Made by a program: the position numbers and the translations under genes | Shown: in pieces, positions 49,743 to 52,850 of the stretch | How positions within the stretch are numbered: the stretch's first letter is position 1 | Layout of the letters: the number at the start of each line of letters is the position of its first letter | NCBI RefSeq assembly: GCF_012184385.1 | Contig: NZ_VSRL01000038.1 | Span: 1-54,320, forward strand | Direction: 5' to 3' | DNA: 54,320 bases | DNA from: Lentzea indica | GTDB taxonomy: Bacteria; Actinomycetota; Actinomycetes; Mycobacteriales; Pseudonocardiaceae | The notes under the pieces: model-generated | Seen by the model: only the letters and a program-made list of their open reading frames with translations | What the model was told of the DNA's origin: nothing | Databases searched by the model: none

Positions 49743-51794
49743 CTAAGCCTGGGCCAGGTCCGTGAAGCGGCTGTAGTGCAGCTGGTGCGCCACGGTGATG
49801 GTGGCGGTCGGGCCGGCACGGTGCTTGGCGACGATCAGGTCGGCCTCGCCGGCGCGCGGGTCGTCGCGTTCCCAGGCGTCCGGGCGGTTGATCAGGATGA
49901 CCATGTCGGCGTCCTGCTCCAGCGAGCCGGACTCACGGAGGTCCGACAGCATCGGGCGCTTGTCGGTTCGCTGTTCCGGACCACGGTTCAGCTGGGAGAT
50001 CGCGATGACCGGGACCTCGAGCTCCTTGGCGATCAGCTTCAGCGATCGTGAGAACTCCGAGACTTCCTGCTGACGTGACTCGGACTTCTTGCCCGACGAC
50101 ATCAGCTGGAGGTAGTCGACGACCATCAGCTTCAGGTCGTGGCGCTGTTTGAGGCGGCGGGCCTTGGCGCGGATCTCCATCATCGTGAGGTTCGGGCTGT
50201 CGTCGACGAACAGCGGCGCCTCGCTGATCTCGCTCATCCTGCGGGCCAGGCGGGTCCAGTCGTCGTCGCTCATCTTGCCGCCGCGCATGTCGCCGAGGCG
50301 GATGCGCGCCTCGGCGGAGAGCATGCGCATCACGATCTCGGTGCGACTCATTTCCAGGCTGAAGATGGCGCTGGTCAGGCCGTGCTTCACCGAGCACGAG
50401 CGGGCGAAGTCGAGGCCCAGCGTCGAGTTGTGGGTCGGGATCATCGTCCCGCCCGCGAGGTACAGGTGGTCGTGGTTGTCGACCTCCACGCACCGCACCG
50501 GCACGGACGCGACCGGGCGCACCGCCACGATCTCCACCTGGTCGTGCCGGCCCAGGCCGGCGATCAGCTCGTCGACGTCACGACGCAGGCGCGCGAACCG
50601 GCCGTCGATCTGCAACGCCGCCAGCAGCTCCTCGCGCTGCTTGCGCGAGGCACGCAGGTACGCGGCGGGGATGTGCGGGTCGTCGGCCACGTCCAGGTCC
50701 TTGGCCACGCGCAGCTCGTCGTCGGTCAGCTCCAGATCGCCCAGTCCGGACAGGAACAGACCCAGCGCACGTGGCGCCAGCGGCAACGAGACGGTGGGCA
50801 GCTCCCACCCGGCGGACATGCGCACGAACATGCGGCACACGCCGACGCGCTCGAACAGCTGCGCCGTCGTGCGGATCGCCCAGAAGCCGCCGGTCTCGCT
50901 GCACGACTCCGTCAGCCACTGGTGCTCGGCGTCGGCCACGATCACCGTGCCGTCGGAGAACTCCACCTCGAAGCACGGGCGGCCGGTCATCACCTCGGTC
51001 GCGGCGACCACGCGCGTCGGGCGGCCGTCGGCGCCGATCAGGAAGTCGCCCACCGCGACGGAACCCATCGTGGTCCAGCCGGACGGCGTGGGCAGCGGAG
51101 TGTCGAGCGCCAGCGCCTTGCCGACGCCGGGACGTGCGGCGACGATGATCATCTGGCCGCCGTGCAGGCCGTTCGTCAGCTCGTCGAGGTCCGCGAAGCC
51201 CGTCGGGATGCCCTGCGAGATGCCGCCGCGGGACGCGATCGCGTCGATCTCGTCCATCGTCGGCTGGAGCAGGTCCTCCAGCGCCACGTAGTCCTCTGTC
51301 GTGCGGCGGTCGGTGACCTCGTAGATCGCGGCCTGCGCGCGGTCGACCACCTCGTCGACGTCCGCGCCCTCGGCACCGTTGTAGCCGAGCTGGACGATGC
51401 GCGTGCCCGCCTCGACGAGGCGGCGCAGCACCGCCTTCTCGGCCACGATCTCGGCGTAGTAGCCGGCGTTCGCTGCCGTCGGCACCGTCGCGATCAACGT
51501 GTGCAGGTACGGGGCGCCACCCACGCGCAGCAGCTCGCCACGCCGCTCGAGCTCGGCCGAGATGGTGATCGGGTCTGCGGGCTCGCCGCGGCCGTACAGG
51601 TCGAGGATGCAGTCGTAGATCGCCTGGTGCGCGGGGCGGTAGAAGTCGTTCGGCGCGAGCGCCTCGATGACGTCGGCGATGGCGTCCTTGGACAGCAGCA
51701 TTCCGCCGAGAACGGACTGCTCGGCGGCGAGGTCCTGGGGCGGCTGACGCTCGAATGAGGGCTCCGCCATGCCCCGGTCGTCCACCAGCGCCAC
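49743..51794 (-). CDS. dnaB: Replicative DNA helicase DnaB with an in-frame intein
   Basis: A hexameric 5'-3' replication-fork helicase. The N-terminal domain opens with PQDLAAEQSVLGGMLLS, and the RecA-like C-terminal domain has Walker A ARPGVGK-ST, Walker B LMVVDYLQLMS and the late DLRESGSLEQDADMVILINR. A 230-residue intein separates GVGK from STLGLDFARS. GTG at 51794 is preferred because AGGGGTGAT lies before it; a TTG at 51800 would add two residues. Without the intein the helicase has the normal ~453 residues. A long gap with DnaA boxes precedes it, after rplI. Confidence 0.95.
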   Translation of the reverse strand: MALVDDRGMAEPSFERQPPQDLAAEQSVLGGMLLSKDAIADVIEALAPNDFYRPAHQAIYDCILDLYGRGEPADPITISAELERRGELLRVGGAPYLHTLIATVPTAANAGYYAEIVAEKAVLRRLVEAGTRIVQLGYNGAEGADVDEVVDRAQAAIYEVTDRRTTEDYVALEDLLQPTMDEIDAIASRGGISQGIPTGFADLDELTNGLHGGQMIIVAARPGVGKALALDTPLPTPSGWTTMGSVAVGDFLIGADGRPTRVVAATEVMTGRPCFEVEFSDGTVIVADAEHQWLTESCSETGGFWAIRTTAQLFERVGVCRMFVRMSAGWELPTVSLPLAPRALGLFLSGLGDLELTDDELRVAKDLDVADDPHIPAAYLRASRKQREELLAALQIDGRFARLRRDVDELIAGLGRHDQVEIVAVRPVASVPVRCVEVDNHDHLYLAGGTMIPTHNSTLGLDFARSCSVKHGLTSAIFSLEMSRTEIVMRMLSAEARIRLGDMRGGKMSDDDWTRLARRMSEISEAPLFVDDSPNLTMMEIRAKARRLKQRHDLKLMVVDYLQLMSSGKKSESRQQEVSEFSRSLKLIAKELEVPVIAISQLNRGPEQRTDKRPMLSDLRESGSLEQDADMVILINRPDAWERDDPRAGEADLIVAKHRAGPTATITVAHQLHYSRFTDLAQA
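50427..51116 (-). other. Class 3 intein (mini-intein, decayed homing endonuclease) in DnaB
   Basis: The 230-residue insert starts ALALDTPLPTPSGWTTMGSV right after GVGK of Walker A and ends MIPTHN before Ser. The first residue is Ala, not Cys/Ser. Class 3 splicing uses a W-C-T set: Trp in DAEHQW, Cys in VRCVEVDNHDHLYL and Thr in the terminal THN, and all three are present. A remnant of a LAGLIDADG endonuclease lies between (LGLFLSGLGD, IPAAYLRASRKQREELLAAL), with the second acidic motif lost (LQIDG). The intein should be able to splice but not to home. Confidence 0.92.
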
Positions 51795-51957
51795 TGCCAA
51801 ATCACCCCTGTGAAGAGTCGAGAGCCGGTGCCATGTCCCCTAGTTGTACAGCGCGACACCGACAATTCCGGGCGGCCACGCTGTGCGATGACGATCGCCC
51901 GAGTCGCGACGCTAGAGGGACCCGTCCGGAGCAAGCAAACCAGCGTGTGGATTGTCC

Positions 51958-52170
51958 TGTGGACAACTGGGGGACAACCTGTGGATGGTTGCTCACAGGG
52001 GCGGAGGCGCTGGGGACAACCTGTTGACAACCGGTGGAGTGACAGAAGTAACTGCAGCTCAGGGGCTGTGCACAAGTTGTGGAAAAAGTTGTGCGCCACA
52101 CCGTCGGCGTGTCGCGAAAAACGCCCGCTTCGGCGTGTCGTGAGCCCGCTGTACGCACGGTTTATCCACA
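51958..52170. promoter_or_regulatory. Cluster of DnaA boxes upstream of dnaB
   Basis: A perfect TGTGGACAA (51958-51966, the complement of TTGTCCACA) and a perfect TTATCCACA (52162-52170) flank one-mismatch boxes TGGGGACAA (52011-52019), TGTTGACAA (52022-52030), TGTGCACAA (52067-52075) and TGTGGAAAA (52078-52086). Weaker sites lie at 51969 and 51980. At least six boxes fall within 213 bases, mostly on one strand. No dnaA or dnaN gene is here, so this is not the standard oriC. It may titrate DnaA or regulate dnaB. Confidence 0.75.
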
Positions 52171-52394: not shown

Positions 52395-52850
52395 TTACTC
52401 GGCGGAGCTGGTAACAACCACCGGCAGGGTCAGGGTGACCTCGGGGTGGAGGCGAACCGTGACCGAGTGCTTGCCGGTCGTCTTGATGTGACCCGGCAGT
52501 TCGATGGCGCGCTTGTCCAGCACGGGACCACCGGCGGACTTGACGGCAGCCGCCACGTCCGAAGCGGTGACCGAGCCGAACAGCTTGGTGCTGCCCGCCG
52601 CGGCCTTCGCCTTCAGCGTCACGGAGAGACCCTCGAGAGCGGTCTTGATCTCCTTGGCGTGGTCCAGGTCGCGCACGCGCCGGGTGTCCTGCGCGCGGGT
52701 GATGACCTGGATCTGCTTCTGCGCACCGCGGGTCGCGACGATCGCGAGACCGCGCGGGAGCAGGTAGTTGCGGCCGTAGCCGTCCTTGACCTCGACGATG
52801 TCGCCGGGCGCGCCAAGGCCGGAAACGTCAGCGGTGAGGATGAGCTTCAT
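52395..52850 (-). CDS. rplI: 50S ribosomal protein L9
   Basis: A 151-residue ribosomal protein. The N-terminal domain [20 protein letters not shown] then [17 protein letters not shown] is the L9 signature. A charged helix ([16 protein letters not shown]) links it to the C-terminal domain ending VTLTLPVVV. It binds 23S rRNA near the base of the L1 stalk. It lies 17 bases after rpsR in the rpsF-ssb-rpsR-rplI operon and is followed by a strong terminator. Confidence 0.97.

Follow-up and report, generated by a model that had tools for sequence, protein, structure and literature searches.

A conserved array of predicted DnaA boxes upstream of dnaB in Lentzea, helically phased across much of its class

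DnaA binding upstream of dnaB is already known in mycobacteria. IDAP-seq and ChIP-seq placed DnaA there in Mycobacterium tuberculosis in vitro and in M. smegmatis in vivo, and the DnaA variant I282T binds less at dnaB in the same mutant that under-expresses the gene, a correlation seen in one mutant (passages of PMC7738170). The same paper cites control of dnaB by DnaA in Caulobacter crescentus, where DnaA binds ahead of the helicase gene, and calls the mycobacterial data consistent with it. Escherichia coli carries non-coding sites that act on DnaA away from oriC, namely datA and DARS (according to PMC5742627). In Kutzneria albida, which belongs to the same family as the organism studied here, oriC has been assigned to dnaA-dnaN, an assignment that cumulative GC skew supports, and was remarked to be without classic boxes (PMC4210621). 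The high-affinity DnaA box given for M. tuberculosis and Streptomyces coelicolor (Table 1 of PMC4285127) is the motif that we used throughout.

We analyzed a 54.3-kb stretch of DNA from Lentzea indica (the window) in which predicted DnaA boxes lie between rplI and dnaB; because both genes are on the minus strand, the boxes form an array upstream of dnaB. Like the dnaB regions of M. tuberculosis (Rv0057) and M. smegmatis, the locus has boxes directly upstream of dnaB and near the origin, with binding in Lentzea being predicted; in contrast to the mycobacterial region, it has rplI as its immediate neighbor and two copies of a second sequence, GACACGCCG. Caulobacter crescentus offers the same likeness, DnaA at the upstream region of the helicase gene, although it belongs to another phylum. 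Streptomyces coelicolor reportedly has box clusters outside yet near oriC that are thought to titrate DnaA (work of Smulczyk-Krawczyszyn from 2006), and the Lentzea array resembles these in its position outside but near oriC. Of a DnaA titration site in general, it is expected that its deletion leads to over-initiation and that additional copies delay initiation. The E. coli sites differ from the array in that they change the nucleotide state of DnaA and have no tie to dnaB. An earlier note on this DNA had taken Streptomyces as its frame of reference, which is not apt, the genus being Lentzea (Pseudonocardiaceae). New here are the class-wide phased conservation of the boxes, the companion GACACGCCG repeat and a parallel cluster downstream of crgA; judging by titles and passages in a literature that covered few subscription journals, we found nothing on class-wide conservation or phasing of dnaB boxes.

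The array between rplI and dnaB

In the rplI-dnaB gap, we found six predicted DnaA boxes within 213 bp (51958-52170), two of them perfect and four with one mismatch (Table 1). The earlier note had counted two perfect and at least four one-mismatch boxes; its positions were right, and exactly four one-mismatch boxes lie between the perfect pair. The whole window holds 11 matches with at most one mismatch, six of which are in the dnaB array, and a total of 11 was reached in 17 of 100 shuffles (mean 7.1), so that the unusual feature is the clustering and not the total. In the named loci L094-L099, the counterpart of the box at 52067 reads TTGTGCACA, TTGTTCACA or TTGTACACA; the box at 52078 is found in L094-L097, and L098 and L099 have no match with at most one mismatch at that place. 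Position and alignment also point to putative weak box-like sites at the dnaB end of the array, which DnaA may use; the one at 51946-51952 ends 7 bp ahead of a -35-like hexamer.

Table 1. Coordinates of the features discussed (window positions unless a locus is named)
Feature	Position	Strand	Remarks
DnaA box, perfect, TTGTCCACA (TGTGGACAA in window letters)	51958..51966	-	perfect also in L094-L099
DnaA box, one mismatch, TTGTCCCCA	52011..52019	-	identical in L094-L099
DnaA box, one mismatch, TTGTCAACA	52022..52030	-	11 bp from 52011 box; identical in L094-L099
DnaA box, one mismatch, TTGTGCACA	52067..52075	-	45 bp from 52022 box
DnaA box, one mismatch, TTTTCCACA	52078..52086	-	11 bp from 52067 box
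DnaA box, perfect, TTATCCACA	52162..52170	+	opposite orientation, outer end of array; perfect also in L094-L099
Putative weak box-like sites: ATCCACA (51946-51952, 51980-51986), TTGTCC (51972-51977)	51946..51986	-	position and alignment
Direct repeat GACACGCCG-N17-GACACGCCG, 26 bp start to start	52105..52139	-	inside array; pattern search
Promoter-like motif TTGCTT-N18-TAGCGT, putative dnaB promoter	51909..51938	-	conserved block in 23-genome alignment
dnaB, replicative helicase, intein-interrupted	49743..51794	-	TIGR00665 above cut-off, PF00772, PF03796
rplI, ribosomal protein L9, upstream neighbor of dnaB	52395..52850	-	TIGR00158 above cut-off
Three-perfect-box cluster, C301	L033:4857-4898		
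Three-perfect-box cluster, C555	L034:6701-6736		
Three-perfect-box cluster, C623	L035:6164-6218		

The promoter-like block directly follows the array on the dnaB side and is conserved in the genus. The boxes end before its -35-like hexamer, and no box overlaps the promoter-like hexamers. When we scanned 79 of the best 80 named loci, a CTAGCGT-like motif was present in the 700 bp upstream of dnaB in 66, and in 49 of them the gap from the end of the last box to this motif measures 30-32 or 42-44 bp, with the motif having been picked post hoc and the distances having no control. A scan with the sigma-70 consensus found no promoter upstream of dnaB. Because of this result and of the post hoc choice of motif, we infer a dnaB promoter from conservation only.

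Within dnaB, an in-frame insert (about 50430-51116) resembles an intein and sits at the Walker A motif of DnaB; its predicted ends and the putative GTG start of the gene were read from the translation. DnaB open frames range from 694 to 805 aa among full-length genus matches, which suggests that the insert varies in size. An Rfam search of the window gave no match, and we dropped a structured RNA as a reading.

To judge what box numbers mean in this genome, a 9.97-Mb draft assembly of 634 contigs, we compared the motif with its reversed form. Matches with at most one mismatch number 1689 as compared to 1465 for the reversed motif, so a lone box is near chance and means little; perfect boxes number 106 as compared to 44. 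A Poisson estimate from the genome box density predicts 1.4e-7 tiles of 213 bp with at least six boxes per genome. We sampled 0.8 Mb of this genome as forty 20-kb pieces of hand-picked contigs; none of the 3720 tiles of 213 bp had more than two boxes, and one sliding 213-bp place had three. These genome counts and the 0.8-Mb sample rule out a chance origin of the dnaB array, and the similar box density in many intergenic regions that the earlier note had named as speaking against a special cluster did not appear in the 0.8 Mb sampled. The control with the reversed motif in the class set of dnaB upstream regions and the contrast between the downstream and upstream sides of crgA (both below) rule out intergenic composition as the cause.

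Among the own-genome clusters that we examined, the dnaB array has the most boxes. By perfect boxes alone it is not the top site, as C301, C555 and C623, three tight clusters found among 100 of the 106 perfect-box places, each pack three perfect boxes into 55 bp or less. Further clusters of three boxes lie downstream of crgA and near C631:5755. Perfect pairs spaced 18 bp apart were considered as extra clusters and rejected: the three that we inspected by eye (L004, L006 and L026, on own contigs C11 and C131) apparently lie in coding sequence for polyketide-synthase linkers, and such pairs are a source of false positives when boxes are counted. Near position 5393 of L036 (own contig C344), perfect boxes form an inverted pair within a longer palindrome, with the same spacing in C532; this is perhaps a repeat element.

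Conservation and helical phasing from genus to class

Six named Lentzea loci (L094-L098, L123) share 98-100% identity with the N-terminal part of DnaB, same-genus genomes are equally close, and L099, which was deposited as Nocardia sp., shares 97%. In an alignment of 23 same-genus genomes, from which the partial match of G004 was omitted, 47 of the 54 columns in boxes are invariant as compared to 61 of the 159 in spacers, and the DNA that separates rplI from the array shows little conservation. For the family, we used the best 80 named loci, almost all labelled as Pseudonocardiaceae genera and overlapping in part with the same-genus genome sets. Box density in these loci is 6.5 per kb over the 700 bp preceding the DnaB match, as compared to 0.147 per kb elsewhere in them. 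Of the best 80 named loci, 78 have one or more boxes upstream of dnaB (L129 has none and L123 has 2 bp of upstream sequence), and at least four boxes lie within 250 bp upstream of dnaB in 60 of the 80, as compared to 2 of the 80 elsewhere in the loci.

We then assembled a class set that covers 37 other families with 109 dnaB upstream regions, drawn from 141 other genomes with a match: 29 best-match loci and 80 loci hand-picked for family coverage before sequence inspection, with 32 omitted. Two of the 39 other families are absent, f7 (no match) and f24 (no upstream sequence), and two regions are short (L254, 255 bp; L191, 311 bp). At least one box is present in 105 of the 109 regions as compared to 33 for the reversed motif, and at least two within 250 bp in 90 of 109 as compared to 1 of 109. 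Within the same span, at least three boxes occur in 68 regions and at least four in 38 (37 when overlapping palindromes are counted once), as compared to 0 and 0 for the reversed motif. By family, 27 of 37 have a region with at least two boxes within 250 bp and 10 have no such region. The matches point in the direction of dnaB in 266 cases and in the opposite direction in 81, a total of 347 that counts overlapping palindromic matches twice (342 counted once). In f2, a group of the same order that is probably the mycobacteria and their relatives, each of nine regions has 2-8 boxes. Outside the class, in 25 regions of the same phylum that are a subset of all matches, we found 20 boxes as compared to 3 in the control; 13 of the 25 regions have at least one box and only 5 have at least two within 250 bp, so the signal fades beyond the class.

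Spacings between boxes on the same strand concentrate in the class set at 11-13, 20-24, 31-34, 42-45, 53-57 and 64-68 bp, and none of 14-19, 25-30, 35-41 or 46-52 bp was found there. The period is 10.8 bp with an amplitude of 0.68. When one genome per family was drawn 200 times, the amplitude had a mean of 0.71 and a minimum of 0.60, as compared to 500 position shuffles that never exceeded 0.41. Part of the shared spacings owes to common descent, and the key point is that the phase is retained across such distance.

On the same strand, rplI lies within the 900 or 1500 bp examined in 39 of the 109 class regions. Twenty class regions were read over 6 kb; these are mainly regions without nearby rplI and thus give no measure of how frequent an arrangement is. 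In 18 of the 20, rplI is present with its end 1.5-5.3 kb before the DnaB match, and it was not found within 6 kb of dnaB in L362 and L369. Among these 20 regions of other families (L351-L370), at least seven, L360 and L365 included, have an open reading frame divergent from dnaB with a MATE-transporter-like start, and the two such proteins tested by family search were both MatE. The divergent MatE gene and dnaB share the box-bearing gap. The boxes stay beside dnaB whether the neighbor is rplI or the divergent MatE gene. That the array is a property of rplI is disfavored, as the boxes persist with MatE in between and with rplI absent within 6 kb in the two regions named.

Inside the array lies the direct repeat of GACACGCCG. 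The pattern GACACGCCGN{12,22}CGACACGCCG has one match in the own 9.97-Mb genome, and single GACACGCCG copies number 32 in the 0.8-Mb own-genome sample. Across the best 80 named loci, the DNA upstream of dnaB has exactly two copies in 59, one in 12, three in 1 and none in 8; the remaining 1.5 Mb of sequence in the loci contains 43 copies. Each of the nine f2 regions, from the same order, has at least one copy, preceded in several by a variant copy, and GACACGCCG is missing or sporadic in the remaining class families. The conservation of this repeat suggests that a second factor may act at the dnaB array. To our knowledge, no reader of the repeat has been described, and among the papers listed in a literature search on GACACGCCG, none was relevant by title. 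We considered WhiA, for which a GACAC consensus is given (PMC3781837), and a term search of the main text of that paper did not find GACACGC, dnaB or dnaA.

Origin-proximal clusters and the site downstream of crgA

The earlier note had described the array as lying away from dnaA/dnaN. This holds for the draft, in which the two are on different contigs; in the complete same-genus genome G011, however, the array is origin-proximal, 68 kb from dnaA. The distance between dnaA and dnaB is 22-215 kb in the 34 of 42 few-contig genomes for which it could be calculated (circularity assumed for 7). The own oriC, a dnaA-dnaN gap of 679 bp (L032:9074-9752), has four one-mismatch boxes, no perfect box and several TTGTCCCC-like sites, and it resembles the oriC of Kutzneria albida in having no classic boxes.

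Within the 400 kb around dnaA and dnaB in G011, we found nine clusters of at least three boxes, as compared to none in 400 kb sampled elsewhere. The nine are oriC, the 5' end of dnaA, the site downstream of crgA, a dnaN-side cluster (own C631:5755), dnaB, the counterpart of the own C555 cluster (89 kb from dnaA) and three others; the dnaB cluster is the largest, with 6 boxes. The C301 and C623 clusters have no match in these 400 kb.

The own cluster downstream of crgA lies in L310 (C94:12547-13031). We collected 30 crgA loci of the class (L310 and L412-L440) and dropped 5 clipped ones; L424 and L427 are apparently near-duplicates. Of the 25 remaining loci, 24 have a box within 700 bp downstream of crgA, L415 being the miss. 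Downstream boxes number 69 as compared to 4 for the reversed motif, in contrast to upstream, where there are 3 as compared to 3. CrgA is Rv0011c. Our data suggest that the cluster downstream of crgA may be the counterpart of a mycobacterial DnaA site at Rv0010c-Rv0011c, for which the publication that treats it notes no obvious correspondence to binding in other species.

Probable function of the array

Taken together, these data suggest that the boxes serve as a regulatory array at which DnaA binds and stimulates transcription of dnaB, a reading to which we give a probability of roughly 0.6. DnaA would control dnaB from the array, probably by activation, and titration is a likely second role. 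For Lentzea, DnaA binding and its order, the sign of the regulation and the promoter itself are inferred. The perfect boxes would be bound first, and DnaA would then spread cooperatively as an oligomer across the helically phased weaker boxes. DnaA positioned upstream of the promoter-like motif would raise dnaB transcription, so that the supply of helicase would track initiation-competent DnaA, and as a likely by-product several DnaA molecules would be kept near the origin. Activation is favored because the boxes stand before and not over the promoter-like motif, because of their phase and because of the DnaA I282T data. That dnaB is subject to DnaA had been one of three options in the earlier note, and it gains support from the promoter-adjacent placement of the boxes, from their constancy at dnaB despite the change of neighbor and from the mycobacterial data.

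Titration of DnaA, another of these options, is possible given how the clusters gather around the G011 origin, and we consider it rather unlikely as the main function. The array would then be a titration or timing site whose origin-proximal boxes, doubled early after initiation, absorb DnaA, and its nearness to dnaB would be incidental or secondary. With two perfect and four near-perfect boxes near the origin, the array has the several consensus boxes expected of such a site; the nine clusters near the G011 origin as compared to none in 400 kb elsewhere and the 22-215 kb between dnaA and dnaB in 34 few-contig genomes speak for it, as do the boxes that follow crgA in 24 of the 25 loci, other origin-proximal clusters such as this one not being known to serve a replication gene. 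However, pure titration needs neither the constancy of the array at dnaB when the neighbor changes nor a regular distance from the promoter-like motif, and in the mycobacterial mutant weaker binding goes with lower dnaB expression (passages of PMC7738170).

The third option, a relocated or secondary replication origin, is scarcely credible. The array does surpass the own oriC in consensus boxes (6 vs 4; perfect, 2 vs 0) and is adjoined by the helicase gene, but the dnaA-dnaN gap combines boxes with an AT-rich stretch, where the lowest 30-bp GC is 33%, as compared to 47% in the rplI-dnaB gap, in which the same scan found no AT-rich unwinding element. The oriC of Kutzneria albida was likewise placed at dnaA-dnaN (passages of PMC4210621). 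Over 400 kb of G011, the GC skew turns clearly at neither dnaA nor dnaB, a profile that speaks neither for nor against a second origin. We also regard as improbable both a reader of the boxes other than DnaA and repression of dnaB by DnaA from the array. The conserved GACACGCCG repeat does hint at a second factor; against another reader of the boxes, the motif is the listed high-affinity DnaA box (Table 1 of PMC4285127), and against repression, the promoter-like hexamers are free of boxes and the mycobacterial mutant indicates activation.

Returning to activation of dnaB by DnaA from the array, we tentatively propose a wider picture, with the odds somewhat against it. The class may have inherited a fixed set of extra-origin DnaA sites, comprising at least the phased dnaB array and the crgA cluster, that would couple DnaA to helicase supply and to the cell-division program; a second, GACACGCCG-binding factor would act with DnaA at dnaB; and in Pseudonocardiaceae, whose oriC may be without classic boxes, the strongest boxes would be at these sites and not at oriC.

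An array at dnaB with constant helical spacing over much of the class suggests that the link between DnaA and dnaB is old and under selection. The boxes, their spacing and the GACACGCCG repeat are small DNA targets in harmless soil bacteria at which regulation could be tested against titration, and the array probably links helicase supply to the initiation of chromosome replication.
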